From: Arthrobacter sp. zg-Y769
GTDB lineage: Bacteria; Actinomycetota; Actinomycetes; Actinomycetales; Micrococcaceae
Assembly: GCF_020907405.1 (NCBI RefSeq)
Contig: NZ_JAJJOE010000004.1
Location: forward strand, 248,001-312,000
DNA: 64,000 nt
Direction of reading: 5' to 3'
Made by a program: the position numbers and the translations under genes. Below are positions 23,402 through 45,847 of the stretch, in pieces (the stretch's first letter is position 1; each line of letters opens with the position of its first letter). The notes below the pieces were generated by a model, which saw nothing but the letters and a program-made list of their open reading frames with translations, searched no databases and was not told where the DNA came from.

Positions 23402-23557
23402 GTGCAGCAGATGCCCCCTCGCCGGTAACGTCCGGACCGGAATCTAGTGAGCAGATGACGGGCTTACCCGGAATCTACTGAGCAGATAACCGGGCTACCC
23501 GGAATCTAGTGAGCAGATGACGGGCTTACCCGGCGCCGATGAGCCCGTTATCTGCTC
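23402..23557 (+). repeat. repeat families C and B, locus 1
   Basis: Motif C, GTGCAGCAGATGCCCCCTC, is at 23402-23420. It is followed by three exact 31-base-spaced copies of motif B (CCGGAATCTAnTGAGCAGAT then ACGGGC; CCGG at 23437, 23468 and 23499). An inverted copy of B (23542-23557) can pair with the third direct copy (23511-23526, 15 of 16 bases) around a 15-base loop. The same C-then-B order recurs at 45.06 and 47.62 kb. Confidence 0.85.
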
Positions 23558-23575
23558 AGTAAACGCGATTCGGGG

Positions 23576-23675
23576 CTAAGCCCGGTCGGGGTTTGAGGCG
23601 CTCCGCCACCGCTGCCGCGCATCCACAGGGACCACGCCCATCGCCTGGAGCCGGGAAATCCGGCGGGAGGTCCCG
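23576..23675 (-). pseudogene. 3' remnant of a DUF6308 gene
   Basis: The minus strand from about 23675 aligns with the 3' end of the intact DUF6308 gene at 45152-45847, about 85 percent identical by eye over some 60 bases. It would read ISRLQAMGVV and then, after removal of one extra base near 23630, LWMRGSGGGAP, against SRLRAMDVVLWMHGTGGGAP in the intact copy. A TAG stop lies at 23576-23578. Nothing upstream of about 23675 resembles the rest of the gene, so only the C-terminal end was left or duplicated here. Confidence 0.7.
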
Positions 23676-23733
23676 CCTGCTCGGTATGCCGCTGGACGAA
23701 GATCAATGCCCAACACTCAGTGCCAGCCGATGA

Positions 23734-23762
23734 TTGTGCACTACTGAACTGGTACGTACAGT
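23734..23762 (+). promoter_or_regulatory. island promoter 1 with ACTG-N7-CAGT operator
   Basis: TTGTGC (23734-23739) and TACAGT (23757-23762) are exactly 17 bases apart. The 15-bp palindrome ACTGGTACGTACAGT (23748-23762) covers the -10 element. Three other promoters in the island share this architecture. It drives the monooxygenase gene at 23802. Confidence 0.7.
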
Positions 23763-23801
23763 ATAGTTCCGGTTATCACGTCACCCACGAGAGGTATACC
23801 G

Positions 23802-24989
23802 ATGTCGATGACGACAACGACCGCCCCCACAGCAAGCGAGCTCATCGCCCGCGCGGAAAAGCTGGTCCCGCTGTTGCGGGAGCGCGCATCCGAGGCCGAA
23901 AACCTCCGACGGCAGCCCGATGAGACCATCGAAGATTACAAATCAGCCGGGTTCTTCACAGCGATGGTGCCCGCCGAACATGGAGGCTCCGCACTCGGCC
24001 TCAGCGAGTTCGCCGACCTCGTCCGCGTCCTCTCGCGGGGTGACGCCTCTGCTGGCTGGATCGCCGCATTCCTCATCTCGCACTCAACCCTCCTCTATCG
24101 CTACGGCGCCGAGGCACAGGGCGAGTTCTTCGCGGAAAAACCGTACGGCCTGACCGTCGCAGCTGCGGGCCCGCCCGGAGCCGCAACCCCTGTGGAGGGC
24201 GGATATAACCTCTCCGGCACCTGGCGCTTCGGTTCCGGTGTTCTGCACGCCGAGTGGGCCGCGCTCAGTGCAATGTCCCCCGATGGCCCTCTCAGCGTTG
24301 TGGTACCCGTCAGTGAGACCGAGATTGTCGACACCTGGCACGTCCCCGGAATGAAGGCGACGGGCTCCAACGACATCAAGGTAGAGGGACTCTTCGTTCC
24401 CCGCCACCGCACGGTTCCCTTCCCCAAGTACTCGTCGGAGCACAACGAGGGTGCGGCACTGACTGAATACCCGCTCATCGGCTACCCCATGAACCGCACG
24501 CTCAACCTCATCCATTCCGCCGTCGCGATCGGCACCGCAGACGCAGCCCTCGAGCTGTTCGCGGCCGGTCTCGGTAAGCGGGTCCGGATGCAGACGCGGC
24601 AGAAGCAGATCGACGAACCGATCACCCGCCAGACCTACGGCAAGGCATGGGACCTCGTACAGGTCGCGGGTCTCCAGTTGCACGACGCACTTGCGCACAC
24701 TGACCGGGTTTACGGCAGGCACTCGACCGGTCCCGCGACGCTCGCAGATCGCGCCCGCATCAATCTGGGGCTAACCGGATCCGGGCAGAAAGCTTTCCAG
24801 GCCATCGACCTAGTAGTACGGGCAGCCGGCGCCTCCATCTTCCGCACCGGGGACCCTCTGGAACGGATCGTCCGCGACACGCAGGTCATGCGCAACCACG
24901 CCGCAGTCGACTTCGAGACCATGGCATCGGTTGCCGGCGGAGCGCTGCTCGGTGTTGGCATCGGCGACTACGCCGAGCCCATGTTCTAA
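23802..24989 (+). CDS. class D flavin monooxygenase-like protein (acyl-CoA dehydrogenase fold), copy 1
   Basis: A protein of 395 residues of the acyl-CoA dehydrogenase superfamily. SRGDASAGWIAAF, GTWRFGSG and WHVPGMKATGSNDI resemble HsaA/DszC-type two-component flavin monooxygenases rather than true dehydrogenases, and the catalytic YEG-Glu motif is absent. Such oxygenases use reduced FMN or FAD supplied by a separate reductase to hydroxylate aromatic rings or similar substrates. It is paired with an NTF2-fold gene 41 bases downstream. The same pair, clearly paralogous, occurs at 32.7-34.6 kb. GAGAGG precedes the ATG; MTTTT two codons later is an alternative start. Confidence 0.8.
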   Translation: MSMTTTTAPTASELIARAEKLVPLLRERASEAENLRRQPDETIEDYKSAGFFTAMVPAEHGGSALGLSEFADLVRVLSRGDASAGWIAAFLISHSTLLYRYGAEAQGEFFAEKPYGLTVAAAGPPGAATPVEGGYNLSGTWRFGSGVLHAEWAALSAMSPDGPLSVVVPVSETEIVDTWHVPGMKATGSNDIKVEGLFVPRHRTVPFPKYSSEHNEGAALTEYPLIGYPMNRTLNLIHSAVAIGTADAALELFAAGLGKRVRMQTRQKQIDEPITRQTYGKAWDLVQVAGLQLHDALAHTDRVYGRHSTGPATLADRARINLGLTGSGQKAFQAIDLVVRAAGASIFRTGDPLERIVRDTQVMRNHAAVDFETMASVAGGALLGVGIGDYAEPMF

Positions 24990-25030
24990 GTCGATCCGAC
25001 CGACCTCCACCAACTGAAAAGGAAGACCGC

Positions 25031-25684
25031 ATGACCGACATTGCTGCACTTGAACGCCGGATTTCCCGAACCGAGGCCTACATCGAGATCTCGAACATCA
25101 TGGGAAGGATTGAATTCCTCCACTCCGCGTACGCGAACGAGCCGATTGTGCCCTACTTCAGCACACGGCCCGACACCGTGATCGAGCTCCCCTTCGGCCG
25201 CTACACCGGTTCCGACGCCGCGCAGCGCTGCTTCGTCGGCGCTCTCGATGAGGGCCTGCCGCCCCGCGACCTCAGCGGTGAGTACGTCGAGCACCTCTTG
25301 TCCACGCCCGTCATTGAGGTTGCCGATGACCTCGAAACGGCGAAGGCAGCGTGGATCACGCCGGGCGCCGAGGCGCACCACCTCGGTTGGGTTGAGGGCA
25401 ATCCCCTCCACGGGTTCTGGTACTGGGGTCGCTACCATCTGGTCTTCCGCAAGGAGGACGGCGCCTGGAAGATCTGGAAGTACCGGAACTCCCTCACGTT
25501 CGTGGCCGACTACTACAAGAGCTTCACGGACGGCAGCCTCCCCCGTCCCCCCGCCCCGATCGGCAACGGCGGACCGGACAGCGCTCCGCGATTCCAGGTC
25601 GAGTACACCCCGTCGTGGGATCCCAAGGAACTCGTGCACGCGCCCGAGCCCTATGCCACGTTCGTCGACGAGGACGAGTTCTAG
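25031..25684 (+). CDS. NTF2/SnoaL-fold protein, copy 1
   Basis: A protein of 217 residues with blocks such as GRIEFLHSAY, PFGRYTGSDAAQ, GAEAHHLGWVEGNPL and FWYWGRYHLVF, also found in its paralogue at 32.7-33.3 kb. The fold resembles SnoaL-like or ring-hydroxylating dioxygenase small-subunit proteins of the NTF2 superfamily, whose cone-shaped cavity binds small hydrophobic molecules. The His pair in AEAHHLGW is conserved between the paralogues and may be functional. It is co-transcribed with the monooxygenase and followed by a strong terminator. Whether it is an enzyme or an accessory subunit is unknown. Confidence 0.7.
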   Translation: MTDIAALERRISRTEAYIEISNIMGRIEFLHSAYANEPIVPYFSTRPDTVIELPFGRYTGSDAAQRCFVGALDEGLPPRDLSGEYVEHLLSTPVIEVADDLETAKAAWITPGAEAHHLGWVEGNPLHGFWYWGRYHLVFRKEDGAWKIWKYRNSLTFVADYYKSFTDGSLPRPPAPIGNGGPDSAPRFQVEYTPSWDPKELVHAPEPYATFVDEDEF

Positions 25685-25701
25685 CCACGCAGGAACACCA
25701 A

Positions 25702-25736
25702 AAAGCGGCCGGGTGAACAATTCACCCGGCCGCTTT
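25702..25736. terminator. bidirectional intrinsic terminator
   Basis: AAAGCGGCCGGGTGAA pairs perfectly with TTCACCCGGCCGCTTT around a 3-base loop, between convergent NTF2 and thiolase genes. Confidence 0.9.
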
Positions 25737-25748
25737 CCGTTCTGCCGA

Positions 25749-26969
25749 TCAGCTGAGGCGTTCCAGCACGATTGCCATTCCCTGCCCGCCGCCCACGCAC
25801 AGCGTGGCCATGCCAAGCGTCTTGTCCTCAGTCGACAGGCCGTTGATCAGCGTACCGATGAGGCGGGTACCGGTCGCACCGAACGGATGCCCGATGGCGA
25901 TCGCCCCGCCGTGCGTGTTGAGCTGACGGTCCACGTCGATCCCGAGCTCCCTCGCAGAAGCAACGACCTGGACGGCGAATGCCTCATTGATCTCGATCAG
26001 GTCGAGGTCAGCGATGGTCAGGCCGGCCCGACGAAGCGCCCGCCGCGACGATTCCACTGGTCCGAGCCCCATGATCTCCGGCGACAGACCCGAGACAGCG
26101 GTAGAGACGATGCGTGCCAGTGGCTGCAGACCGTGCGCCTTCGCATACCGCCCGGAGACGACCACTGCGGCGGATGCACCGTCATTGAGCGGGCAGGCAT
26201 TGCCGGCCGTGACCGTTCCGACGGGCGAGAACACGGGCTTAAGCTCGGCCAGGGCCTCCGCCGTGGTTCCCGGACGGAGCGAGTCATCCTGATCGAAGAT
26301 CGACCCGTCCGACCGCACCACGGGAACGATCTCCCGCGCCAGGTAGCCGCTGGCCTGCGCTTCCCCCGCCAGACGCTGCGAGCGTGCAGCAAATGCGTCC
26401 TGCTCCGCGCGGCTGACGCCGGTCAGCCGCGCCACATACTCGGCCGTGTGACCCATTTGGATATAGGCGTCCGGCATCCCGCCGTCGGCGCGTGGGTCAT
26501 GCCACGGCGCCCCCGACAGCATCGCCTGTGCCGTGCGTTCTGCAGCTGCGTCGAACGCGGCATTGCCCGCCCCGGCCGGCGGGGCCGCGTGGGATGTCGA
26601 CTCGGTGCCTCCAACAAGGAACGCATCCCCTTCGCCGGCCTTAATGGCGTGGAAGGCCATCCGGGTGGTTTGGATCGAGGACGCGCAGAAGCGGTTCACG
26701 GTTGTGCCCGGCAGCGTGTCGTAGTTGAGCAGCGTTGCCACGACGCGGGCCATGTTGAACCCCTGTTCACCGTCGGGGGCCGCCGTGCCGAGCATCAGGT
26801 CGTCGACGTCGTCGATTGACAACCCAGGTACACGGTCGATGACGCCGGCGAAGACCTGGCGCGCGAGTTCATCGCCGCGCACATCGGCCAGACCGCCCTT
26901 GCGGGCACGGCCGATGGCGGTACGGGCGATGGAGACGATGACGGCGTCGTCGTCGGTAAGAGTGGTCAT
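25749..26969 (-). CDS. thiolase (acetyl-CoA acyltransferase)
   Basis: A thiolase of 406 residues with the nucleophile in NRFCASS (C95), NEAFA (328-332), GHPFGATG (H361) and the second catalytic cysteine in CVGGGQG (C391). It cleaves 3-ketoacyl-CoA with CoA, or acetoacetyl-CoA to two acetyl-CoA. It is the last gene of the minus-strand island operon. With acetoacetyl-CoA synthetase two genes upstream, splitting acetoacetyl-CoA is the likely job. It overlaps the hydroxylase gene by 4 bases. Confidence 0.9.
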   Translation of the reverse strand: MTTLTDDDAVIVSIARTAIGRARKGGLADVRGDELARQVFAGVIDRVPGLSIDDVDDLMLGTAAPDGEQGFNMARVVATLLNYDTLPGTTVNRFCASSIQTTRMAFHAIKAGEGDAFLVGGTESTSHAAPPAGAGNAAFDAAAERTAQAMLSGAPWHDPRADGGMPDAYIQMGHTAEYVARLTGVSRAEQDAFAARSQRLAGEAQASGYLAREIVPVVRSDGSIFDQDDSLRPGTTAEALAELKPVFSPVGTVTAGNACPLNDGASAAVVVSGRYAKAHGLQPLARIVSTAVSGLSPEIMGLGPVESSRRALRRAGLTIADLDLIEINEAFAVQVVASARELGIDVDRQLNTHGGAIAIGHPFGATGTRLIGTLINGLSTEDKTLGMATLCVGGGQGMAIVLERLS

Positions 26970-28543
26970 GCGGACTCCCGTAGCTGGGCCGATTCAAGGG
27001 CGGACATGAGGTGGATGGCGTCGTCGACGGTCTTTGCAGAGGCGAACCCGTGGAAGTCGGGACGGTAGACGACGGCCACGGCCGTATCGAAGACCTCACC
27101 GTATCGGCCGTCGACGTCACTGCCGCTGTGCCGGTTACGGGCCGCGGTATCGGGGGGCATGACCTCGATGACCTTGCACGGGAATCCGGCGGGTTTGGCC
27201 GCGCGGATACGCTCCGCTTCGTCCTCGCCCACCACGCGCCCGTCGACGAAGGCCACGAACTCACCCCAGGTAATTTGGTCTGCGGCTGTCTCGCTGCCGT
27301 CGAGGCCGCGCAACCGTCCCTGCACGCCGATTCGGCCGGCCACCGGATCGGCCCCGGGCGCACCGCCGGGGAAGAAGCCCGGCCCGAGGATCTCCGGCGG
27401 CATGGGGGGAAGTGCATTCCAGGGGAACGGCCCGGTACTGAGGAAGTGGGCGTCCCGCGCCTCGACCTTGGCGGGGTCGGTCTCGCAGATCATCCGCCCG
27501 AGTTCGAGTGACATCATCAGCGCATGCTGCACGTGTGCACCCCGCTCGCTCCCATAGGTGTCGAGCAGGCTGAGCGGCGCGAGCCCGCTGAGCACGTGGT
27601 CAATCTTCCACACGAGGTTCGCGACATCGCGGACCCCCGACACCATGCCCCGCCCGAAGAAAGGCGGCATCTGGTGCGCGGCGTCGCCGGCGACGAACAC
27701 GCGCCCGCGGCTCCATTCGGTGACGCACCGCGCGTTGAACGTGTACATCGCCAGGCGCTCGAGGTCCGCGTTCTCGGGAGTGACCTCCCAGGGAGCGACG
27801 AGTCCCCAGGCGTTCTCCGTGCTGGTGAATGCCGCAGCGTCCTCGCCGGGCATCAGCATGAATTCGAAGCGACGCCGGCCAGGACCGCCGGAGACGACAG
27901 ATGTCGGACGCAGGGGGTCGCAGATCTGGCCGTTCTCGGGCGTCCATTCACGCTCGGCCATCTGGAGATCCATCACCAGCCAGTCCGAACTGAAGTCCAG
28001 ATCCGTCATCGCCAGACCGGCGAGTTCCCGCACGGCCGAGTTGGCGCCGTCGCATCCCACGAGGAACTTGGCCCGGACCGTGGCCCCGCCGGCAGGTCCG
28101 TCGATGACCGCCGACACCCCCTCGGCATCCTGGTCAAACCCGGTAAGAGCGGTTCCCCAGCGAATCTCGAGCCCTTCGGCCACCTCCTGGTGCCGCCGCA
28201 GCGCGGCTTCGAGGTCGGGCTGGGCGAACATCGTGGACTCCGGCCAGCCCTGCGGCCCGTCGAGGGGCGCCGGGAAGGTCAGCAGGAGCTTCCGATCGGC
28301 AGTCAGCCAGTCGTAGCTCAGGGCAGGCTCGCTGAACCTGGCCTGCTCCTCCGCATCCAGGCCTACTCCGGCCAGGAAGCGGTTGACGTCCGGGTCGTAG
28401 TGGACCGCCCGCGGCAGAGAATACGGTTCACGGTGCTGCTCAACGGCCAGCACCCGGTACCCGCGCTGTGCAAGGTAGAGGGAGGTCAGTTGCCCCACCA
28501 CACCCTGTCCCACAACAAGCACATCGACATCGTTGTCGCTCAT
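26966..28543 (-). CDS. FAD-dependent aromatic monooxygenase (MhpA/PheA-like)
   Basis: A class A flavoprotein hydroxylase of 525 residues. GxGxxG motif GQGVVG (12-17), CDGANSAVR (the DG motif, about residue 170), and GDAAHQMPPFFGRGMVSGVRD (the GD motif, near 300) are all present. The PPFFGRG form is typical of 3-(3-hydroxyphenyl)propionate hydroxylase (MhpA) relatives, which hydroxylate phenols ortho to an OH using NAD(P)H and oxygen. Its overlap with neighbouring genes and the presence of an extradiol dioxygenase in the same operon suggest it makes the catechol-type ring-cleavage substrate. The exact aromatic is not known. Confidence 0.85.
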   Translation of the reverse strand: MSDNDVDVLVVGQGVVGQLTSLYLAQRGYRVLAVEQHREPYSLPRAVHYDPDVNRFLAGVGLDAEEQARFSEPALSYDWLTADRKLLLTFPAPLDGPQGWPESTMFAQPDLEAALRRHQEVAEGLEIRWGTALTGFDQDAEGVSAVIDGPAGGATVRAKFLVGCDGANSAVRELAGLAMTDLDFSSDWLVMDLQMAEREWTPENGQICDPLRPTSVVSGGPGRRRFEFMLMPGEDAAAFTSTENAWGLVAPWEVTPENADLERLAMYTFNARCVTEWSRGRVFVAGDAAHQMPPFFGRGMVSGVRDVANLVWKIDHVLSGLAPLSLLDTYGSERGAHVQHALMMSLELGRMICETDPAKVEARDAHFLSTGPFPWNALPPMPPEILGPGFFPGGAPGADPVAGRIGVQGRLRGLDGSETAADQITWGEFVAFVDGRVVGEDEAERIRAAKPAGFPCKVIEVMPPDTAARNRHSGSDVDGRYGEVFDTAVAVVYRPDFHGFASAKTVDDAIHLMSALESAQLRESA

Positions 28544-30495
28544 TTTGCTTCGATTCCGTTCTGTTCGTTGAACACTCGGGCACGCTGGACGAACCAGTCG
28601 ACCGTGCCTGGGTTCTGCAGCGATCCGCGGTTGACCGCCTTGGCCTGGTCATACCCCAGGAACACCTTCTTCAAGGGCACCTCGATCCGCTTGCCGGAGT
28701 ACGTGACGGGGATGCCCGGCGCTGCCTCGATCGCATCGGGAACATGCCGTGCCGTGGCCCGGGAGCGGATCGCGGTCCGGATCCGTGCCACCAGGTCGTC
28801 GCTGAGGTCGACGCCGTCGGCCAGTTCGACGAACAGCGGCATCCAGTACCGCCCGCCCGGCATTTCGATCCCCAGAACGACGCCGTTACGCACCTCGTCC
28901 AGAGTCTGCAGCGCGGCGTAGATCTCGGCGCTTCCGAGCCGCACGCCGTCGCGGTTGAGCGTCGCGTCGGATCTTCCGTGCACCACCACACCCCCGCGCG
29001 GGGTGCGGCTGATCCAGTCGCCGTGCGTCCAGACGGAGGGATCTGCCTCGAAGTACGCCGCGTGGTACTTGGCGCCATCCTCATCGCCCCAGAAGCGGAC
29101 CGGCATCGACGGCATCGGCCCGGTCAGCACGAGCTCGCCCACTTCGTCGTCCGCCGCCTCGCGGCCGCCCTCGGCGCGGACCTGGACGGGAGTTCCCAGC
29201 GTCGGCCCCTGCAGTTCGCCGAGGTGCACGCGCTGCCAGGGGTTGCCCCCGATGAAACCGCTGCAGATATCGGTGCCGCCGGAATCGCTTGAGAGGTGGA
29301 CATCGGCCTTGACCGCCGCGTGGACCCAGCGCCAGGTCGAGGGGGCGAGAACCGATCCCGTCGACATGATCGTGTCCAGGCACGAGAGGTCGTGACGATC
29401 CCCCGGGCGCAGCCCGGACTTCTCCACGAGGGCGAGATATGCGGCACCGGTCGCGAGCATCGTCGCCTGCGTCTGAGCAACGAGGGCGAACTGGCGGTCG
29501 GCATCCGGCCACATGGACGCACCGGGGAAAGTGACCACGGATGCCCCGACGCTGAGCGTGTTCGGAAGAGTGTTCCACACCATCCAGGAGGTGTTCGCGG
29601 CGGTGAAGTAGCGATCACCCGGACCGAGGTCGAACTGCAGCCCGATTCCCTTGGCGGATTCCAGCAGCATTCCGCCGTGTCCGTGCACGATCCCCTTCGG
29701 TATGCCGGTGGTTCCGGAGGAGAAGAGAACCCACAAGGGGTGGTCAAACGGGAGGCGCCGGTAGTCCGCGGGTGCAGGCGGCAAGGCATCGAGGCCGTCG
29801 AGGTACACGACGTCGGTCACCGTGGGCAGCGCGGAGCCGACCGAATCGACCAGTGGCCGGGAGTCGACCGCGCGGCCCTTGAACGTGTAGCCGGAGAAAC
29901 CCAACAGCACGCGGGGCTCGAGCGGTGCGAGCCTGTCGACGATGGCGGGTTTAGCGAAGTCGGGTGAGCACACCGACCAGATGGCGCCGAGGGATGCGGT
30001 CGCGAGCATCGCAGCGATCGCCTCGGGGATATTCGGAAAGATACCCGCGACGACATCGCCCTGCTCGACGCCGAGGCCGCGGAGGCGGGCGGCGAGGGCC
30101 GCGACACGATCACGGAGACCGGCCCAGGTCCACTCGATGCGCCCGTCCTCGGCCAGTCCGACGATCGCCACCTCGTCCGACCTTGTGTCCGCATGCCGCA
30201 GGACATTCTCGGCATAGTTCAGCCGCGCCTGCGGGTACCAGACCGCACCGGGCATGCGGCGCTCCGCAAGGGCAGGTCCCACCAGCCCGTCGCCTATCAG
30301 GCCTGCATGCTCACGTACGAGATCCCAGAATGCCCCGGGCTCCTCGACCGACCACCGCCAGAAGGCAGGGTAGTCGTCGAGGAGCACGCCGTGGCGTTCC
30401 AGGGCCAGCTCACGGAGGGACCACAGCTGGGTCTGCCGGATACTCTCCTCGGTCGGAGCCCAGGTGACCTCGGGCGCCGCAGACGTCTCGGTCAC
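28540..30495 (-). CDS. acetoacetyl-CoA synthetase (acetoacetate-CoA ligase)
   Basis: An AMP-forming ligase of 651 residues. The N-terminal segment with DDYPAFWRWSVEEPGAFW and YAENVLRH is the acetoacetate-CoA ligase signature. The nucleotide loop is SSGTTGIPKGIVHGHGG and the C-terminal lysine is in TYSGKRIEVPLKK. It activates acetoacetate (or a similar 3-keto acid) with ATP and CoA. Gene overlaps of 4 bases on both sides place it inside the operon after the FAH-family hydrolase, consistent with acetoacetate as a ring-cleavage product. Confidence 0.85.
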   Translation of the reverse strand: MTETSAAPEVTWAPTEESIRQTQLWSLRELALERHGVLLDDYPAFWRWSVEEPGAFWDLVREHAGLIGDGLVGPALAERRMPGAVWYPQARLNYAENVLRHADTRSDEVAIVGLAEDGRIEWTWAGLRDRVAALAARLRGLGVEQGDVVAGIFPNIPEAIAAMLATASLGAIWSVCSPDFAKPAIVDRLAPLEPRVLLGFSGYTFKGRAVDSRPLVDSVGSALPTVTDVVYLDGLDALPPAPADYRRLPFDHPLWVLFSSGTTGIPKGIVHGHGGMLLESAKGIGLQFDLGPGDRYFTAANTSWMVWNTLPNTLSVGASVVTFPGASMWPDADRQFALVAQTQATMLATGAAYLALVEKSGLRPGDRHDLSCLDTIMSTGSVLAPSTWRWVHAAVKADVHLSSDSGGTDICSGFIGGNPWQRVHLGELQGPTLGTPVQVRAEGGREAADDEVGELVLTGPMPSMPVRFWGDEDGAKYHAAYFEADPSVWTHGDWISRTPRGGVVVHGRSDATLNRDGVRLGSAEIYAALQTLDEVRNGVVLGIEMPGGRYWMPLFVELADGVDLSDDLVARIRTAIRSRATARHVPDAIEAAPGIPVTYSGKRIEVPLKKVFLGYDQAKAVNRGSLQNPGTVDWFVQRARVFNEQNGIEAK

Positions 30496-34674: not shown

Positions 34675-36195
34675 TCAGTCAGTAGGTCGGGGCTCGACCA
34701 GCGTTTTCTCGTCATGAACGGCAGGCCCCGTCCACGGGGCGGGGAACTTCGGCAGAAGGGCGGCGCACGCTACCGCGATGACCCCCAGCACAACGAGTAC
34801 GAGCATCGGCGCGGCGTAGCTTCCCGTAGCTGCCTGAAGCGCACTGAAGAGGTACGGGGACGCCGCAAGCGCAACTCCCGTAACCGCGAGCGTCATGCCT
34901 TGGAGTGCCGCGAAGGACTTCATCCCGAAATACTTGGCGATCAGCGCCGGGCCCAGGGCCGACTCCACGCCCGCGATGATGCCGAGCAGTCCCATAGAGA
35001 GATAGACGAGCACCAGGGAACCACCGTTACCGAGTGCGAGCAGGAGACCTAGCGGTGCGCCGAGGAGAAGCAGCGCTACGACCCACGGGCGGCGTGTGCG
35101 GTCAAGAGTGGTACCCCCGGCAAGCAGTCCAATGATTGACGTGCTGGCGAGTACCGAAAGCGAGACCGAGACGGCGGCGGGATTGACACCGGACTGGCCG
35201 AAGAAATCCACTGCGTTCTGACGCATCGCGATCGGCCCGGTCCCAGCGAGGACGAGGAAGAGGATGAGTAGAATCCACGGTCGCGTCAAAATCGCCTTCC
35301 GGAACGGCACCCCGGGAAGAGAAGCGTCGACTGCCTTGGGCAGAGGAACGCGCGCAGTGACCTTGGGCTCGGAGATGAGCCAGAGCACGGTGGGGATTCC
35401 GATGACGGCGACCGCGATGGCGGTGACGAGGTAGGTGCCGTCCCAGCCAAGCCCCGCGAAGACCCCGGCGTCGACGGCAGGCATCGGCGCACCGCCCGTG
35501 TCACCAGGTGGAACCAGGCCGCCGCTTCCGGAGTCTGCGGGGGGCTCGGCGCCCGCCGGCGCCTCGCCTGCCGGGGGCACCCCACCTGTCCGGGGCGCGG
35601 CGTTCCCATTAATAAGCCACTGGAACAGAGGAGATGAGATCGCTGCGATCATGCCGGACGTCACGCCGACGAGGCCGAAACCAATACCACGATGCGCCGG
35701 GAACCACCCGGAGATGACTTTGAATACCACCCCCAGGCTCGCGCTGAAGCCACAGATGGCCGTGAGGGTAAGGAGCACACCGAGCAGCCATGGGGTGGTG
35801 CCGGCGACCGGAACCAAGGCCATAAAAACCGCATAGAGAATGATGGACGGCAAAGCGACCGTCCGGGCGCCGTGGCGGTCGACCCAGCGTCCGAGGAAGG
35901 GAAGGAACAATGGTCCGACGAGCAGCGGAATGCTGACGAACAGAAGTATCCCGTCCTGCGGCGGTGTACCTGTGCTCATCGCGTAGGCCGGAACAATAAA
36001 GGGGGTCATTGCAGCCAGGGCTGCAGGACTCACGGCGACCAGCAGGAGACTGCCGATCAGCGCCGCCTTGGCCCGGCCCGGGGCCTTCAGGAAGTCGACG
36101 GCGTATTGTCGAAAGCTGGTTTTCGCTGCGTCGTCGAGCAGGGGCACGGGCTGCGGAACGCTCGACGCCGGCACAACGGGATGATCTTTCTGCAT
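34675..36195 (-). CDS. MFS transporter (monocarboxylate-type)
   Basis: A transporter of 506 residues with about twelve hydrophobic segments; AAGGAG is seen before the ATG at 36195. LGRWVDRHGARTVALPS is the MFS loop 2-3 motif, and VFKVISGWFPAHRGIGFGLVGVTSG resembles monocarboxylate-porter MFS proteins. A loop of about 50 residues rich in Pro, Gly and Ala (NGNAAPRTGGVPPAGEAPAG onward) is inserted between transmembrane helices in the middle of the protein, which is unusual. It lies among monooxygenase genes and probably imports the aromatic or organic acid substrate of the island. Confidence 0.82.
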   Translation of the reverse strand: MQKDHPVVPASSVPQPVPLLDDAAKTSFRQYAVDFLKAPGRAKAALIGSLLLVAVSPAALAAMTPFIVPAYAMSTGTPPQDGILLFVSIPLLVGPLFLPFLGRWVDRHGARTVALPSIILYAVFMALVPVAGTTPWLLGVLLTLTAICGFSASLGVVFKVISGWFPAHRGIGFGLVGVTSGMIAAISSPLFQWLINGNAAPRTGGVPPAGEAPAGAEPPADSGSGGLVPPGDTGGAPMPAVDAGVFAGLGWDGTYLVTAIAVAVIGIPTVLWLISEPKVTARVPLPKAVDASLPGVPFRKAILTRPWILLILFLVLAGTGPIAMRQNAVDFFGQSGVNPAAVSVSLSVLASTSIIGLLAGGTTLDRTRRPWVVALLLLGAPLGLLLALGNGGSLVLVYLSMGLLGIIAGVESALGPALIAKYFGMKSFAALQGMTLAVTGVALAASPYLFSALQAATGSYAAPMLVLVVLGVIAVACAALLPKFPAPWTGPAVHDEKTLVEPRPTD

Positions 36196-36287
36196 CGGGA
36201 CTCCTTGTGGTCGGTTGTCGCCGGCGTCGACCTTGACGCCTGCGCTTTCACCTGCTGGGGCACGAGGGCGAACCCCCGGGACACGAC

Positions 36288-37670
36288 TTACGGGCGCGGG
36301 GGAACTGCCGGAGGACGCCCGCCCTTGGGCGCAGTGACGGGCGAACTTATCGCCGCCATCATCGGAAAAGGTGCAAGACCGAACATCGCCCGGCCATTGA
36401 TCTCGGCCATCGGATCGATCCGGAACGCCCCATGCGTGGCCAGGACATGAATCTCCCGCACCGCGCGCTGGAGCGGGTTCGAGAGCGCAACCGCCGACGA
36501 TCCCAGGGCGAGGAGGAGTCCGTCCACAGTATGAAGGCACTGGTGGATCAGGTGGACGAGGTCCATGGTGATCTCGGGCTCTTCCGACGGCAGATAGTCC
36601 TCTCCCGCGAGCGCCCGCCGATCGGCCTCGTCCATGTGCCGGGCGAGAACGGCGTCCGCCGCGTTGATGGCCGCACGCGCTTTGCCGGCGACCATCTGGA
36701 TCGAGGCCATTTCCGACATAGTCGGGTAGGGCAGATTGAACGGCGGACGCTTCGCGGCCTGCGCCAGGAACGAGTCCAGTGCCCCCTGTGCGATCCCGAT
36801 GGCCAAGGCGGCGAACGCGCCGCTGCTGCCGATCATCATCCCGAACGCTCCGTGCTTGAAGCCCAACCCCGAGTAGGCGCCTCGAAGTGAATCGCTCAGA
36901 CGCGGAAGGTCAGCGGTGTGGACGACGCGGTAGTCGGGGACGAAGATCTCCTCGTCCGCCCGGATGCTGTTCGAATTCGTTGCCTGAAGCCCCATGACAT
37001 GCCAGTCGTCGACGATCGTGTACTGGTCCCTGGACAGGACAGCCATTGCGCGTCGCCGCTCGCCGCTTGCCGGGTCGTCATACTCGAAACCAACGGAGCC
37101 CCAGGCAGCGTGCTTGCTGCCGCTGCCGAACGACCACTTGCCCTTCACCTGGTAGCCGCCGGCCACCTTGCGGCCGTCGCCGACCTTCGGAGCGAAGACG
37201 GTCGCACCGAACACGAGCGGACCGACCCATTCGTCGATTCCCGCAAGTACTTCGTCGCGGAGCTTCGCATCGAATCCAAGGATGTTCCGGGTCGCGCTCG
37301 AGACGATTACCAGCCAGGCGGCTGCCGCATCGCCCAGGCCGAGTGTCCGCACTACCTCCGCAGTGTCGCGAGCCCCGAGTGCGTAGCCGCCCAACTCTGT
37401 GGGGATCGTGATTTTGAAGGCACCGACCCGATTCACCGCCTCCAGGGTGGCAGGAGTCAGTGCGCCGAGCGCTTCCCCCTCGGCGGCCTGTTGGCGCAGC
37501 AACGGGAGGAGCTGGACAATCTCGTCCCGCATTCGGCGACCCTCATCACTCAGGTACGGCGACTCGGGAAACTTCGCCCTGGTGGCGGAAGGCCCGTCCG
37601 GCAGGATCGGCTCTCCGTTGGGGATACCTGCCGGCGGCAGTGTGCGTGATGTTGTCATCGAGGGATCCAT
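36288..37670 (-). CDS. class D flavin monooxygenase-like protein, copy 3
   Basis: A protein of 460 residues of the acyl-CoA dehydrogenase fold. The block GYALGARDTAEVVRTLGLGD and the C-terminal LALGSSAVALSNPLQRAVREIH closely match copy 4 at 40.6 kb and are less like copies 1 and 2, so the island holds two subfamilies with two members each. WHVMGLQATNSNSI occupies the place of the WHVPGMKATGSNDI block in copy 1. MDPSMTTS is taken as start because AAGAAGAGA precedes it; MTTSRT four codons on is possible. By family it uses reduced flavin from a separate reductase, which is encoded just upstream. Confidence 0.78.
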   Translation of the reverse strand: MDPSMTTSRTLPPAGIPNGEPILPDGPSATRAKFPESPYLSDEGRRMRDEIVQLLPLLRQQAAEGEALGALTPATLEAVNRVGAFKITIPTELGGYALGARDTAEVVRTLGLGDAAAAWLVIVSSATRNILGFDAKLRDEVLAGIDEWVGPLVFGATVFAPKVGDGRKVAGGYQVKGKWSFGSGSKHAAWGSVGFEYDDPASGERRRAMAVLSRDQYTIVDDWHVMGLQATNSNSIRADEEIFVPDYRVVHTADLPRLSDSLRGAYSGLGFKHGAFGMMIGSSGAFAALAIGIAQGALDSFLAQAAKRPPFNLPYPTMSEMASIQMVAGKARAAINAADAVLARHMDEADRRALAGEDYLPSEEPEITMDLVHLIHQCLHTVDGLLLALGSSAVALSNPLQRAVREIHVLATHGAFRIDPMAEINGRAMFGLAPFPMMAAISSPVTAPKGGRPPAVPPRP

Positions 37671-38830: not shown

Positions 38831-38881
38831 GGTGCGGGTCCTCTCTGCAGCTGTCGGCGTCGCGTCAGGGGCAGACACCGC

Positions 38882-39699: not shown

Positions 39700-39724
39700 C
39701 GTCGCACCCTTTCTACAATCATCC

Positions 39725-40423: not shown

Positions 40424-40492
40424 TCGGCTCTCCTCTGTTTACGCTCCGACTCGACTCGCACCTGCGAGTTGCCGCTCATCGCCATCTTATGC

Positions 40493-40507
40493 TCTGGACG
40501 GACCAGT
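40493..40507. promoter_or_regulatory. operator 3a of the ACTG-N7-CAGT family
   Basis: TCTGGACGGACCAGT, one mismatch from ACTG-N7-CAGT. It lies upstream of the TetR gene and exactly 43 bases, about four helical turns, from operator 3b. Probably involved in autoregulation. Confidence 0.6.
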
Positions 40508-40521
40508 ACGGAAAGAGGGCA

Positions 40522-40550
40522 TGGACAAGGGGCGCACTGATCCGTACAGT
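40522..40550 (+). promoter_or_regulatory. island promoter 3 with ACTG-N7-CAGT operator (3b)
   Basis: TGGACA (40522-40527), 17 bases, TACAGT (40545-40550). The palindrome ACTGATCCGTACAGT (40536-40550) covers the -10, as in promoters 1, 2 and 4. Start codon 40578, with GGAG before it. Confidence 0.75.
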
Positions 40551-40577
40551 ACAGGCCACCCAACGGACGGAGATAAT

Positions 40578-41897
40578 ATGACTGACACGATTCCCCAGCA
40601 CTCTAACGAACTGAGTCCCGGGCTCCCCCCTGAGCGGTCGAGCCCCCTGGATGCACCGGCGTCGAGATATCTCAGTGCGGAGGGGAAACGGCTCGCCGAC
40701 GGGGTGCGCGCCCTCCAGCACCGCATTCGGGAGCTCGCCCCCGAGGCCGAGCGCCGCGGCCGCCTCAGCACGGAGATTGTCGAGGCCTTTACTGAACTTG
40801 GTCTCTACCGCGCCTGTGCCCCCATCGAGTACGGCGGATCCGCTCTGGGCGCTCGTGACACCGCTGAGATTGCGCGGGCACTTGGACGAGGCGACGCCGC
40901 TGCAAGTTGGACCTTCTTCGTGGGCACCAGCCTCCGCATGGTCAGCACCTTCCCGAAGCCCTTGGTGGACGAGCTCTACAGCCGTCAGCAGGGCCACATC
41001 GGCCCCCTGGCCGCCGGGGGGTCGACGTTCGCCGCCGTGACGGGCAAGGCGGTCAGGGTGGAAGGGGGATGGAGCATCGAGGGGAAATGGACCTATGTAT
41101 CGGGGAATCACGACGCCGCCTGGCTCTTCGGCGGTGCCGCCTGGGTCGATGGAGACCGCAGCGGTCATGCGCTTTTCATGATGGACCCGGCCGACGTTGA
41201 ACCGATTGATGACTGGCATGTGGCCGGCATGATGGCATCCGACTCCAACTCCGTCACCACGAAGAAGCCGATGTTCGTGCCCGACCACCGCTTCATCGAT
41301 ATGGCAGAGTTCCCGATGCACCTGGACAGTGCGGCGGAACGGTTCGCGGGTCTTGCCTACCGGGCGAAGACCCGCGCATCCATGATGACCGCCACGGTAT
41401 TGAACATGGCCACCCTGGTCGGCATGGCCGAGGGGGCCTTGGAGGTGTTCCAGGAGCTCGCGCCGAAACGGAAGCCGTTCAGCCCGCCGTATGACACGGT
41501 CGCCGAAATGGCGTCCAGCCAGGTTGCAGCCGGGAAGGCAAAGGCGCTTCTCGGCGTTGCGGGCGCGGCCGTACTCCAGTATGCGGACGAGATCGACCAT
41601 CTCGCGGTTCGCGGGGAAGACTACACCGGCGATGAGGAAGCGCAGGGCTGCACGGATCTCGCCTTCGCCGGCCAGCTTGCGAAGGACGCAATCGACCTCC
41701 TCCTGCGCATCCTGGGTTCGTCGGGTATGGCACTGTCCAATCCGCTCCAGCGTTACTCGCGCGACGCCGGCGTCATACTCTCCCACGGCGCCATGCGTCT
41801 CGAATCGCTTGCGGAGATCAGTGGACGCCGCCTCCTCGGACAGCCCCCGTTCAAGATGTTCGCCGGTGGGCTGCAGGACAAGGGTGCGCAGAAGTAA
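40578..41897 (+). CDS. class D flavin monooxygenase-like protein, copy 4
   Basis: A protein of 439 residues of the acyl-CoA dehydrogenase fold, closest in the window to copy 3: GSALGARDTAEIARALGRGDAAASW and ILGSSGMALSNPLQRYSRDAGVI align with that protein. WHVAGMMASDSNSVTTKKPMFVPDHR fits the substrate/flavin region. The longer open frame runs back through the divergent TetR operators, so MTDTIPQ at 40578 with GGAG nearby is taken as start. It is a monocistronic unit, ending at a strong terminator. Probable oxygenase component needing reduced flavin from one of the two reductases. Confidence 0.8.
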   Translation: MTDTIPQHSNELSPGLPPERSSPLDAPASRYLSAEGKRLADGVRALQHRIRELAPEAERRGRLSTEIVEAFTELGLYRACAPIEYGGSALGARDTAEIARALGRGDAAASWTFFVGTSLRMVSTFPKPLVDELYSRQQGHIGPLAAGGSTFAAVTGKAVRVEGGWSIEGKWTYVSGNHDAAWLFGGAAWVDGDRSGHALFMMDPADVEPIDDWHVAGMMASDSNSVTTKKPMFVPDHRFIDMAEFPMHLDSAAERFAGLAYRAKTRASMMTATVLNMATLVGMAEGALEVFQELAPKRKPFSPPYDTVAEMASSQVAAGKAKALLGVAGAAVLQYADEIDHLAVRGEDYTGDEEAQGCTDLAFAGQLAKDAIDLLLRILGSSGMALSNPLQRYSRDAGVILSHGAMRLESLAEISGRRLLGQPPFKMFAGGLQDKGAQK

Positions 41898-41912
41898 CCG
41901 GCGAAAGACGCT

Positions 41913-41956
41913 GAGGATCATGGGTGGAGCTTTCGTTCCACCCATGATCCTCTTTT
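41913..41956 (+). terminator. intrinsic terminator after monooxygenase copy 4
   Basis: A perfect 16-bp stem (GAGGATCATGGGTGGA with its complement), an 8-base loop, then TTTT. Confidence 0.9.
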
Positions 41957-41970
41957 CAGAGCTAGCCGTG

Positions 41971-42011
41971 AAAAAGGGGGAGGCAGAGGCGCTGGTCGCC
42001 CCGCCTCCCCC
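41971..42011 (-). terminator. intrinsic terminator of the sugar-type ABC operon
   Basis: Minus strand: GGGGGAGGC pairs with GCCTCCCCC, followed by TTTTT (AAAAA at 41971-41975 on the plus strand), just after the ATPase stop codon. Confidence 0.75.
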
Positions 42012-42023
42012 TCTGCGTGCAGC

Positions 42024-42800
42024 TCAGGAGGCCAGGATGCCCTCTTGGACGGAGGCTCCCGTGATCCAGCCGATGACGCTTTCCTTGTCGACTGACCCCG
42101 TCGCGGTGTCTGCCACCTTGCGCCCGCGGTTGAGGACGACGGTGCGGTCGGACACGGCGAAGGCGAGGGGAAGGTTATGGGTGACCACGACGATCGAGGT
42201 GCCGCGCGCAGCGAGGGCCTGGATGAGCTCCTCGACGAGTTCGGTCTGCTCGTGTCCGAGCGCAGCCGTCGGCTCATCCATGAGGAGGATGCCCTGTTCG
42301 GGCAAGCGGGCGCTGGCGCGCGCAATGGCGATTACCTGGCGCTGTCCACCGGACAGCATCTCGACGGGGCGAGTCACCGGCGCCGTCCGGATTCCCAGCT
42401 CGTCGAGTTCGCGCTCCGACTCGCGCCGCATCGCCTTGTGGTCGAGAAAGCCGAGCCATCCGAGAGGACCTCGCATGAGTTGCTCCCGGCCCAGGGTGAG
42501 GTTCCCGGCAATATCCATCGCCTCCACCAGTGCGAGATCCTGATACACCATCTGGACCCCTGCCCCGGAAGCATCCCGCGGCGACTTGAAATCCACCGGG
42601 CGCCCGTGCACCAGGATCTGCCCGGAACTGGGGCTATGCGCACCCGACATGACCTTCAGAAGCGTCGACTTGCCGGCACCGTTGTCGCCCAACAGCGCGA
42701 CGACCTCGCCTGGCCGGACAGCCAGGGACACTCGCTCCAGGGCGCGCGCATATCCGTAGTGAACAGAGATGTCCTTCAGTTCCAATGCGGCGTCGCTCAT
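42024..42800 (-). CDS. sugar-type ABC transporter ATP-binding protein
   Basis: An ATPase of 258 residues with Walker A GDNGAGKST, signature LSGGQRQ and Walker B ILLMDEPTAALG. The GDNGAGKSTLLKVMSG pattern belongs to the CUT2 (ribose/fructose) group. Unlike RbsA it has only one nucleotide-binding domain, as in FrcA, so it would act as a homodimer. GAGGAA precedes the ATG, which overlaps the permease stop (ATGA). The longer open frame upstream belongs to the permease. Confidence 0.88.
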   Translation of the reverse strand: MSDAALELKDISVHYGYARALERVSLAVRPGEVVALLGDNGAGKSTLLKVMSGAHSPSSGQILVHGRPVDFKSPRDASGAGVQMVYQDLALVEAMDIAGNLTLGREQLMRGPLGWLGFLDHKAMRRESERELDELGIRTAPVTRPVEMLSGGQRQVIAIARASARLPEQGILLMDEPTAALGHEQTELVEELIQALAARGTSIVVVTHNLPLAFAVSDRTVVLNRGRKVADTATGSVDKESVIGWITGASVQEGILAS

Positions 42801-43844
42801 CGTGTTCCTCTTTTCGCGCCGTCGTCGCCGCTGGCGAGAAGGAGCTTTGACGTTGTGTTTGTCGTCCACATGTTGAGGCCGAGACCGCCGACCAGCAGCA
42901 CGCCCGTGACCACGGAAGACCAGTCCGCCGGCACCTTCGCCAGCAGCAGTCCGGCGGAGATCGTCGCTACCACGATCACGCCGAGGCCGACTCGAGGGAG
43001 GCTCCCCCGCCCACCGACGAACGGCACCCCCGCAAGCGCAACAGCTGTCATTGCGGTGAAGACGGTGCCCACGCTGGCGCTCGGGACCGCGGTCGTGATG
43101 TAGGCCGCCGTCACGATTCCTCCGAGGGCTGCGCACAGACCCGAGATCGCGAAGCCGAGGATGCGGTACCAGTTAACCGCGATGCCGACGCGACGGGCGG
43201 CCTCGGCGCTGCCGCCAACGGCCAGCAGACGTGTCCCCCCCGCGGGTGAACTTGAGGAACACAGTGAGGATAATGAAGAGGACCACCGCGATGTACACCG
43301 GTGCGGGTATGCCGAAGTATGTCCGCGTTCCCATGAACACCAGCTGGGTGAGCCCCGAGATGTTGTAACTGCCGGCGATCAGGAGCGATGCACCGCTGAG
43401 CACGCTGAGCATGGCGATGGTGACGATGAGGGGATTGAACCCCCGGAGTACGACCACGGCGTTGACAAGACCCACGACGAGTCCCACCAGCAAGCCGCAC
43501 ATGATCGCCGCCCCCACCGGCAGCCCCTCCTGAAGGAGGCGCCCGGTGACGACGCCGGCCAATGCGGCTGTGCCAGGCACCGAGAGGTCCAGCACTCCCG
43601 TCATGATCCCCACAGCGACACCCGCGGCGAAGATGCTCGCGATCGCTGCCGCGTTCAATATCGAGATAGCGGTGGGGAGGGTGAGGAAGTACGGTGCCCC
43701 CCAGAACGCGAAGACGATGATGATCGCGATGAAGAGTGCCAGGAGGCCTTGGTCACGGATCAGGAGCAGCCCGCGGATCTTCCAGGGCAGGGCGTTATTC
43801 GGCGAGAGCTGACTCACCGTGTCGGCCCGGGTAACAAGCGCCAT
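42797..43844 (-). pseudogene. sugar-type ABC transporter permease, interrupted by a frameshift in a G7 tract
   Basis: Two open frames cover one permease. The N-terminal part (43844 to about 43235) ends ...FLKFTRGG and then goes out of frame into an Arg-rich tail. Removing one base from the run of seven C on the plus strand (43235-43241) restores TRLLAVGGSAEAARRVGIA and continues to the stop at 42797, for 348 residues. This is the expected length for a CUT2 permease, and the restored junction matches the family's AVGGN-EAAR motif. Other genes of the operon are intact, so a sequencing error in the homopolymer or slippage/phase variation is more likely than a dead gene. Confidence 0.82.
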
Positions 43845-43846
43845 AT

Positions 43847-44818
43847 TCAGTTACCGCCCGTGGCCTTAACCGGAGTCTCGATGATCCCGCCCTGGGAGGT
43901 GGGGTCAGAGATCAGGCGAATGAGGTCTGCTCCGGCCTCGTCAACGGCGCTGGAGTAGTCCCAGCTGACGACCGCCGTGATGTCTCCGGCCTCCTGCGCG
44001 GCCACGGCCGCGTCACCGCCGCCGCCGGCCACGATGCAGGCCGGAGTCTTGTTGGCAGCCTTGAAGGCACCCGCCGCACCGAGCGCGGTCTCGTCGCTCG
44101 CCGCAATGATGACGTTCGCATCGGGGTTGGCGATGAGGAGCTGCGAGACGGTGGTCTGTGCACTCGAAATATCCGCAGCCTCGCCGGTTGCGACGATGGG
44201 GACGTCCGGGGCTCCGGCTGCAAAGGAATCCTCGATGGCACCGATGACCTGCTCTGTGCCGCCGGCGGCATCAGGCGGCATCAGGAACAGCGCCTCGCGC
44301 CCTTCGCCGTCAACGGCGCACGTCGCTGCGGTGTCGCCGATCATCGTCCCGTACTTCATGAAGTCCGGCTCGTCGAACGCGATTCCCGGCTGAGGTCCCT
44401 CTAATCCGACCGACATGGGCGGACCCTCCACGACCACGGGAATCTTCGCCGCCTGCAGCGCCGCGATGCTCTGAGCGGCGGTCTCAGGCGCCACGGGCAT
44501 GATCCACGCCCCCACGATGCTGCGCGTGTCGATGGCCTGCTGGATCTGCTGGGCCTGCTTCACCGCGTCGAAGCCCGCGTCCTGGATGGTGACGGTGTAC
44601 CCCTCACCCTCGAAGTACTCGACCACGCCGTCGGCTAGCGCAGCGACGACGTCGATCTGGGAGGACGGAGTGAAGAAGGCAATCTCTCCCTTCGACTCCG
44701 CGCCGGCGGAGCCGGCGGGCTTGGCAGCCGCTTCCTCGGATGCGGCACATCCGGGTAGGGTCAACAGGCTGACCGCGAGCGCGGTGCCTGCGATTGCGAG
44801 GGAGCGAGTATTCTTCAT
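43847..44818 (-). CDS. sugar-type ABC transporter substrate-binding lipoprotein
   Basis: A lipoprotein of 323 residues with lipobox LTLPGC and a following mature protein of the periplasmic-binding type I (RbsB-like) fold: GEIAFFTPSSQIDVVAALADG, SIVGAWIMPVAPETAAQSI and VIIAASDETALGAAGAFKAA fit. AAGGAG precedes the ATG. It is the first gene of the operon and lies under island promoter 4. The ligand is unknown; placement in the island regulon hints at the growth substrate or a glycoside of it rather than free ribose. Confidence 0.88.
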   Translation of the reverse strand: MKNTRSLAIAGTALAVSLLTLPGCAASEEAAAKPAGSAGAESKGEIAFFTPSSQIDVVAALADGVVEYFEGEGYTVTIQDAGFDAVKQAQQIQQAIDTRSIVGAWIMPVAPETAAQSIAALQAAKIPVVVEGPPMSVGLEGPQPGIAFDEPDFMKYGTMIGDTAATCAVDGEGREALFLMPPDAAGGTEQVIGAIEDSFAAGAPDVPIVATGEAADISSAQTTVSQLLIANPDANVIIAASDETALGAAGAFKAANKTPACIVAGGGGDAAVAAQEAGDITAVVSWDYSSAVDEAGADLIRLISDPTSQGGIIETPVKATGGN

Positions 44819-44881
44819 TGAATCTCCTTGTGCACGGGGCAGCATTGCCTGCGAAAGACACCAGACATTATCGGTTTCTGC

Positions 44882-44910
44882 ACTGTACCGACCAGTAGCC
44901 TAATGCGCAA
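44882..44910 (-). promoter_or_regulatory. island promoter 4 with ACTG-N7-CAGT operator
   Basis: Minus strand: TTGCGC (44910-44905), 17 bases, TACAGT (44887-44882). The palindrome ACTGTACCGACCAGT (44882-44896, plus strand) matches ACTG-N7-CAGT exactly. It drives the ABC importer operon about 60 bases downstream. Confidence 0.75.
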
Positions 44911-45020
44911 TACCCCCGGCGGCGCCCAAGCCTCTTCTCCTTGGAACCCGACGGTTCCTGGATGGAGTTTGCCTGGCCCGGAGGACGTACTGGATGGTTT
45001 CATGGCAGTCACGCTGCGCG

Positions 45021-45140
45021 CAGCTGATGCTGCCCGCGTGCGGTTCGGGCATAATTCGTGCAGTAGATGGCCCCTCTTCGGTCTCCAGGCGGCATCTACT
45101 GAGCAGATAACGGGGCTACCCAGCAACCGGTGAGCAGATA
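45021..45140 (+). repeat. repeat families A-core, C and B, locus 2
   Basis: A single A-like core CAGCTGATGCTGCC starts at 45021. Motif C, GTGCAGTAGATGGCCCCTC, is at 45058-45076. Two B units have GAGCAG at 45101 and 45132, again 31 bases apart; the second is diverged. No inverted B copy was found here. The last B unit ends 12 bases from the stop codon of the DUF6308 gene. Confidence 0.8.
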
Positions 45141-45151
45141 CATGTTCAGGG

Positions 45152-45847
45152 TTAAGCCTCTTCGTCTTCGCCGGTCGGGGGCTGGGGAGCTCCGCCACCG
45201 GTGCCGTGCATCCACAGCACCACGTCCATGGCGCGGAGCCGTGAAACGGGGTGGGGCAGTTCAGCGCGGCGCTGGATTTCGTCGAGGTGGAGGGCGAGCG
45301 CCGCGTTGTCCTTCGTGAGCGCCGCGTGCCAGTCATCCCACTGGGTCAGGGAGCCCTTCAGCTTCGTTTCGCTCTTCACCACCGAGTCCCAGATCGGGAT
45401 CAGGCGGGGACGCTTGCGGGCCAGCAGCTTGCTCGCCTTGGTCGAGCCAATCCCCCATCCTCCGTCTTCCTTGCCGCGGAGAATATCCCAGAGCTTCCAT
45501 GCCGGGCTCTCTTCGCCGAGGACCTTCTCCACCTCGTCGCGATTGAGGGCCGTTAGGTCCAGATCAGCCGGGATCTGGGCAAGCAGCGCGGTAATGTCGT
45601 CCCGGCGCGTCTCAAGGATGCCGATCGAAGCCCTCGGGGAAAAGCGGACCGAAAGGAACGACGCCGCCAGCATGTCATCGGCCGTGATGGTGTTGACGAC
45701 GTCGGGTGCGTCTCCACCACCGGCCCAGGTGTCGAAGCGGGATCCGGTGCGCACCCTGCCCTTGGAACCGCGTTCGGTGTAGTAGTTCTTGAGCAGCGTG
45801 ACCGCGTTTTCGGTCTGCTTTTCGGTGAGTATTTCCGGAATGTGCAT
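45152..45847 (-). CDS. DUF6308-family protein, paralogue 2
   Basis: A protein of 231 residues, exactly the length of paralogue 1, sharing RTGSRFDTWAGGGD (33-46), ITADDM, SKLLARKRPRLIPIWDSVVKS, SLTQWDDWHAALT and MDVVLWM. The start MHIPEIL has GGGGGA upstream; the long open frame before it is spurious. No signal peptide, membrane segment or known active site is recognised. Its 3' end adjoins repeat locus 2, and a decayed copy of that same 3' end stands at the other edge of the catabolic island. A terminator-like hairpin separates it from the genes upstream. Function unknown. Confidence 0.78.
   Translation of the reverse strand: MHIPEILTEKQTENAVTLLKNYYTERGSKGRVRTGSRFDTWAGGGDAPDVVNTITADDMLAASFLSVRFSPRASIGILETRRDDITALLAQIPADLDLTALNRDEVEKVLGEESPAWKLWDILRGKEDGGWGIGSTKASKLLARKRPRLIPIWDSVVKSETKLKGSLTQWDDWHAALTKDNAALALHLDEIQRRAELPHPVSRLRAMDVVLWMHGTGGGAPQPPTGEDEEA

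Follow-up and report, generated by a model that had tools for sequence, protein, structure and literature searches.

The window analysed here is a 64,000-nucleotide stretch of Arthrobacter sp. zg-Y769 (contig NZ_JAJJOE010000004.1, positions 248,001 to 312,000), in which a catabolic gene cassette lies between two copies of a repeat module followed by the 3' end of a DUF6308 gene. Our results demonstrate that this cassette moved horizontally between species and that it occupies a turnover hotspot between opu-type glycine-betaine transporter genes and a gene here called g, an interval in which strains carry the cassette, a Type I restriction-modification (RM) system, a permease or a DUF6308-X-Y block, or hardly any cargo. 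This hotspot probably operates without an integrase, its cargo moving by homologous recombination through locally repeated arms, and the most plausible reading of the frame around the cassette is a pair of older blocks and not a target duplication. The features concerned are as follows, in window coordinates.

19095..22789, minus strand: opu-type glycine-betaine ATP-binding cassette (ABC) transporter genes (Pfam OpuAC, ABC_tran and BPD_transp_1), the conserved left border of the hotspot
23033..23272: repeat cluster A, made of TCTGTACAGCTGATGC units, the final unit inverted
23402..23562, plus strand: left repeat module, in the order C, R, R, R, inverted R
23582..23667, minus strand: D', a frameshifted remnant of a DUF6308 3' end, about 28 codons
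23742..44940: catabolic cassette, from Pfam and NCBIfam on mechanically called open reading frames (ORFs), with borders common to six other hotspot carriers
45058..45140, plus strand: right repeat module, reduced
45152..45847, minus strand: D, an intact DUF6308 gene of 231 amino acids (aa) (Pfam PF19827, 200 bits)
45981..46592, minus strand: X, a small protein with a membrane anchor judged by eye and no family match
46577..47359, minus strand: Y, with a membrane anchor and a coiled-coil-like part judged by eye and no family match
47608..47776: third repeat module, adjoining g, in the order C, inverted C, R, inverted R
47852..48313, minus strand: g, a 153-aa protein with a sub-threshold MauE match, the conserved right border of the hotspot

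Among 28 genomes of the same genus, the cassette, judged by its left 6.8 kb, was found in seven (G001, G007, G008, G009, G010, G025 and G027; G027 is Arthrobacter zhaoxinii zg-Y108, G009 is Arthrobacter sp. zg-Y238 and G025 is A. yangruifuii 785), and in six of them it lies left of g at a distance of 0.2 to 5.4 kb. In a search reaching beyond the genus, the binding-protein gene was matched at E <= 1e-80 in 2 of 197 sampled family genomes (this genome and G008), a count that takes in no weaker homologues and from whose sample most carriers are absent. Per 500 bp, identity to G027 was 93.6-99.0% in the cassette (median 97.4%, 37 bins), against 85.8-96.2% in the left flank (median 90.2%, 14 bins) and 76.8-92.2% in the right flank (median 89.8%, 13 bins). 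The medians for the cassette also exceeded those of the two flanks in comparisons with G007 (90.8% vs 74.6% and 77.4%), G025 (91.2% vs 85.0% and 84.2%) and G009 (95.2% vs 90.5% and 93.4%, the last from three bins). Divergence from G027 at fourfold sites was 7.5% (157/2091) in nine cassette genes and 17.7% (218/1229) in six flank genes (P 1e-18), and that from G007 was 23.6% (444/1880) in eight cassette genes and 47.8% (149/312) in two flank genes; D and Y are omitted from all fourfold sums, as are, for G007, the opu_ATP match (28% aa identity, a paralogue) and the FMN reductase, which had no match.

Phylogenetic analysis was carried out on sequences covering at least 85% of each block (8 rows for the cassette, 12 for opu and 14 for g-M20, the last without G008, G017, G014, G002 and G001). 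The cassette tree grouped this genome with G027 and G025 with G007 with a support of 100. In approximately unbiased (AU) tests, which presume groups fixed beforehand and were here given groups taken from the identity profile and the first trees, the flank alignments rejected this genome with G027 (p-AU 6e-8 and 7e-7) and G025 with G007 (6e-5), and the cassette alignment rejected this genome with G009/G010 (2e-5). Since its identity lies above that of the flanks and its tree conflicts with theirs, the cassette has moved horizontally between species, in line with the horizontal acquisition put forward in an initial annotation of this DNA.

The interval between opu and g was read in 18 of the 28 genomes (for G001, its other cassette site), and opuB and g fell within one retrieved region in 15 of 19 genomes, the window included, with differing content between them. 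In the architectures below, I denotes the cassette, R a repeat module, D the DUF6308 gene, D' its 3' remnant, s a spacer of ~600 bp and g' a piece of g.

This genome: R-D'-I-R-D-X-Y-R-g
G027: R-D'-s-g'-I-g
G025: R-D'-(short s)-g'-I-g
G009: R-permease-R-D-X-Y-I-R-D'-s-g
G010: as G009, without D before X
G008: RM-D-g'-I-more catabolic genes-g
G007: g'-I-more catabolic genes-g
G020, cassette-free: R-R-D-X-Y-s-g
G028, cassette-free: R-D-X'-RM-R-D'-s-g
G019 and G021, cassette-free: permease, with D not found in the interval
G017, cassette-free: R-X'-g
G016, cassette-free and without repeats: D-X-Y-g
G026, cassette-free and without repeats: X-Y-g

Thus, D or D' and the repeat modules occur with other cargo or with none. 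Even between sister genomes that are 96-99% identical, entire segments of the interval differ: G027 and G028 (96-98% identical) agree up to opu and from g on and differ between, and G020 carries 3.2 kb with repeat-D-X-Y where G019 (98-99% identical) carries 1.8 kb with a permease. The Type I RM system, whose families were tested in G028, looks complete there (L048, 11244-17500), and it was assigned in G008 (L041, 3-6831) and G002 via DNA matches of 85-94% to G028 or to each other. The permease block lies in the interval of G019, G021, G009, G010 and G002. In G019, an APC-type permease, named by eye, occupies L051 10374-11912, the place of the repeat-DUF6308-X-Y block in G020. The RM system has a companion gene of 685 aa without a family, a 111-bp remnant of which lies right of the G009 cassette. 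The initial annotation had expected strains without the cassette to show one repeat cluster joined to one intact DUF6308 gene, which was borne out in part: G020, which lacks the cassette, has a single intact gene but carries two repeat modules, and DUF6308 was not found in the interval of cassette-free G019, G021 and G017.

The frame itself is present as that annotation described, with a repeat cluster and a DUF6308 3' end on both sides of the cassette in one orientation. To the left, the opu region is 82-96% identical per 500-bp bin to nine close relatives, and synteny with relatives ends beyond the opu genes at ~22.8-23.0 kb, about 22.95 kb. The left module consists of a forward C unit at 23402, forward R units at 23449, 23480 and 23511 and an inverted R unit at 23544, and the right one of forward C and R units at 45058 and 45101. 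D' (23582-23658) aligned to the intact DUF6308 3' end (45171-45247) with a score of 87, against 27 for the best of 300 mononucleotide shuffles; its frame is broken by one extra base near 23629. Over 23582-23667, it is 81% identical to D of the same genome (69/85 sites), compared with 58% to a third DUF6308 paralogue, so the two ends align better with each other than with a paralogue. That more distant paralogue, at 18398-19093 left of the opu genes, is conserved in close relatives. GC content is 65.7% inside the block and 67.2% and 67.6% outside, and GC at third codon positions is 0.78-0.84 in nine cassette genes, 0.80 and 0.79 in D and Y, and 0.85-0.88 in five of six flank genes, the remaining one having 0.69. 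No sequence match to DUF6308 was obtained among solved structures at E up to 1, no mention of it was found in the literature searched, and D and Y gave no PADLOC match.

Several observations point to an origin of this frame before the cassette. D' differs from D at 16 of 85 sites (19%), a difference with P 5e-4 at the fourfold rate of the cassette and 0.44 at that of the flanks, and from its G027 counterpart at 14 of 85 sites (P 0.004 at the rate of the cassette); in these tests, every site of a broken piece is weighed against fourfold sites of genes. By this comparison, the duplication of the DUF6308 end appears to predate the recent source from which both cassettes derive, and it would therefore not be a footprint of cassette arrival. 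Counterparts of D' are present in G027, G025, G028, G009 and G010, and none of the seven other carriers has the exact frame: the left half alone (repeat and DUF6308 remnant, not adjoining the cassette) recurs in G027 and G025, and in G009 the intact gene stands on the left and a shorter D' on the right, in the order R-D'-spacer-g. Carriers framed otherwise are what the initial annotation had named as evidence against its reading. Because the ends have diverged, modules and DUF6308 occur in cassette-free strains and no other carrier shows the exact frame, we read the frame as two older blocks.

The repeat modules were further examined across the genome. Allowing at most 2 mismatches, the R unit has 22 copies, spread over about 10 loci of the 3.4-Mb genome, against none in a reversed control; three of these loci lie inside the 25.5-kb interval where 0.07 would be expected (P about 7e-5), in a post hoc test in which two of the three are the finding itself. 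A 172-bp palindromic module at 490.5 kb of contig C9 (L060 2448-2619) lies between two gene ends that abut in all three aligned relatives, and a ~400-bp module copy at 497.7 kb of the same contig is absent from all three. The modules thus behave as insertions. Palindromic structure, an intergenic position and multiple copies are the marks of small repeats such as repetitive extragenic palindromes (REP), bacterial interspersed mosaic elements (BIME) and miniature inverted-repeat transposable elements (MITE). The modules resemble these in all three respects and in the precise absence of one copy from relatives. They are unlike them in that the RAYT/REP-associated transposase family PF01797 had no match in the genome and an Rfam search of 22700-48400 gave no match up to E 0.1. 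Inspection by eye revealed no clear target-site duplication around the 172-bp insertion.

The neighbourhoods of four other module loci of this genome (L061, L062 and L063 being left out) were compared with G010, G020, G021 and G028. At C9:490.5 kb, three relatives lack the 172-bp module only, and G028 additionally lacks ~2.3 kb to the left and ~1.5 kb to the right; at C9:497.7 kb, none of the four has the module, and they differ by just a few hundred bases; at C9:221.6 kb, the modules are kept in at least three, with differences below 1 kb. All four also lack the module at C17:48.5 kb, where the neighbouring gene content is variable: across 46-51 kb of C17 (L064), relatives carry two extra stretches of 1-2 kb, a gene is displaced in G028, and the right flank keeps its place solely in G028. 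Gene content near the module is therefore variable at two of the four loci, a count made without a control set of intergenic sites. The modules may serve as recombination arms. It is quite unlikely that composite modules (C, inverted C, R, R, inverted R) are by themselves preferred crossover or end-joining sites at which blocks of 2-21 kb are exchanged between species without a recombinase of their own.

As to the mechanism, the absence of an integrase noted in the initial annotation was supported, no PF00589 match having been found on this contig. PF00589 was matched in all 11 genomes searched, never inside an opu-g interval; PF00665 (rve), the one transposase family searched in the relatives, was matched in three of the 11 and not in the interval, and Pfam revealed no integrase or transposase among 36 chosen ORFs of the window. 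A fragment of g lies just left of the cassette in four of the six other hotspot carriers (G027, G025, G007 and G008). The G027 fragment is 96% like the g of the same genome, 91% like G025 g and 85% like the G025 fragment, and the bases after the junction are identical in G027 and G025, which fits a left crossover within a g arm. On the right of the cassette in this genome, sequence in common with G009 runs to ~45.0 kb (with ~140 bases extra in G009), where a repeat module follows before D. Homologous recombination, one of the two routes offered in the initial annotation, is the best mechanism. We propose that the cargo blocks (the cassette, the Type I RM system, the permease and DUF6308-X-Y) would enter and leave the interval by ordinary homologous recombination, using as arms sequences already repeated locally, namely repeat modules, DUF6308 pieces and the 3' part of g. 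Some exchanges may have been anchored on one side only, possibly by homology-facilitated illegitimate recombination, with later deletions, and truncated remnants would be left behind. In this genome, the cassette would thus have come to lie between a leftover repeat-D'-spacer-g block on the left and a repeat-D-X-Y block on the right. By which recombination route and in what order this happened is inferred.

The initial annotation had taken the duplicated DUF6308 3' end as an integration footprint. Entry there of an old element that has since lost its integrase, the left fragment being the displaced gene end, would produce the direct orientation, the 3'-end fragment and the intact gene opposite. 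However, the ends are 19% apart while the cassette is only ~3% from its nearest relative, other carriers are framed differently, a similar repeat-DUF6308-remnant-spacer-g block occurs in cassette-free G028, and no integrase match lies nearby; we consider this route largely refuted and highly improbable. An integrase-driven arrival at the 3' part of g, blurred by later deletions or swaps, is unlikely. The four g fragments do share one orientation and face an intact g on the right, but the portion of g that they span varies (aa 125-151, 117-152, 48-95, and pieces in G008), without a common core, no carrier has a PF00589 match near the locus, and the cassette of G001 lies elsewhere. A Campbell-type single crossover of a circle bearing the cassette and a repeat-D arm into a chromosomal repeat-D-X-Y block would yield the observed repeat-D'-cassette-repeat-D-X-Y, and the block order of G009 resembles the same circle opened elsewhere; as the copies of D are too diverged for a recent event, we regard it as very unlikely. 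A plasmid origin was rejected, PLSDB in near mode having matched just 4 of 72,556 records, in pieces of 50-58 bases.

Exchange by homologous recombination through local arms has its own difficulties. Identity in this genome jumps at the cassette edge, not within long arms, so one side may be an illegitimate joining. The fourfold contrast between cassette and flanks is small for G025 (0.224 vs 0.257, P 0.04, with D2, of 66.7% aa identity and unsure orthology, also omitted) and for G009 (0.133 vs 0.173, P 0.002). Moreover, no block of hotspot size was found beside the modules at the four other loci, G001 carries its cassette outside the interval, and the age of D' is judged from 85 sites of unlike kind. 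All of these weigh against this reading, which we nevertheless hold to be likely.

The cassette encodes four HsaA-like flavin monooxygenases (PF08028), for which HsaA is the best NCBIfam model with all four below its cut-off, and, above a cut-off, an MhpA-like FAD hydroxylase, a thiolase and an acetoacetate-CoA-ligase-type enzyme. Further families are an FAA hydrolase, a glyoxalase-fold protein, SnoaL and an FMN reductase; transport and regulation are represented by a major facilitator superfamily (MFS) protein, a sugar-type ABC importer and two TetR proteins. Judging from these families, the cassette probably serves the breakdown of an aromatic-type or steroid-like compound. This genome, G009, G010 and G001 carry the MFS gene (34675-36540), which is absent from the cassettes of G027, G025, G008 and G007. 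In G008 (L042 10050-14155) and G007, the cassette is ~4 kb longer on the right, with a short-chain dehydrogenase/reductase (SDR), an amidohydrolase and an acyl-CoA dehydrogenase by Pfam and, judged by eye, a MarR-type regulator and a MaoC-like protein. Three operator-like sites lie in the cassette.

23748..23762, minus strand: ACTGTACGTACCAGT, left cassette end
40536..40550, minus strand: inner site with one mismatch, at the same position in all six other hotspot carriers
44882..44896, plus strand: ACTGTACCGACCAGT, right cassette end

The palindrome-like pattern ACTGTACnnACCAGT thus marks both outer ends and one inner copy, and all three places recur in the six other hotspot carriers. It has one match in G001 and none in the three cassette-free regions tested (G028, G020 and G019); shuffled cassette sequence gave 0.005 matches at up to one mismatch. 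The pattern was built from the two end copies, so independent support comes from the inner copy and from conservation. At up to three mismatches, the window held 11 matches against 6.1 expected, and 5 of 100 shuffles reached 11; matches with 0-1 mismatch alone stand out, the three-mismatch level being barely above chance. The shared motif is consistent with the cassette having a regulon of its own, as the initial annotation suggested. Cassette homology ends at about 23.72-23.74 and 44.92-44.94 kb, that is, at the outermost promoter regions, and these edges therefore need not mark insertion ends.

The locus differs from an att-type integrative island in that no integrase was found and its end repeats are 81% identical over 85 sites, not near-identical. 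Nothing on it appeared among the literature matches listed for Arthrobacter islands, REP or A. zhaoxinii. According to Oliveira et al. 2017 (PMC5635113), 27% of horizontal gene transfer hotspots are without integrases and transposases; there, as here, the conserved genes on either side stay the same as the cargo changes, and double recombination is proposed. That study puts forward flanking core genes as arms and analyses species singly, whereas here short repeated remnants within the interval are among the likely arms and the comparison runs between species. In Vibrio type VI secretion system arrays, according to PMC5361080, new modules likewise oust old ones and leave orphan pieces, and homologous together with homology-facilitated illegitimate recombination is proposed. 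The cargo here is different, and the remnants are DUF6308 and g fragments for which no benefit is proposed. At this locus, the textbook signature of insertion, duplication of a gene end next to an island, is misleading, as the duplicate seems to be older than the cargo. The locus shows between-species exchange of a catabolic cassette and an RM system in the same interval, with leftovers that make some steps readable, and is a well-resolved further example of the established hotspots without mobility genes.

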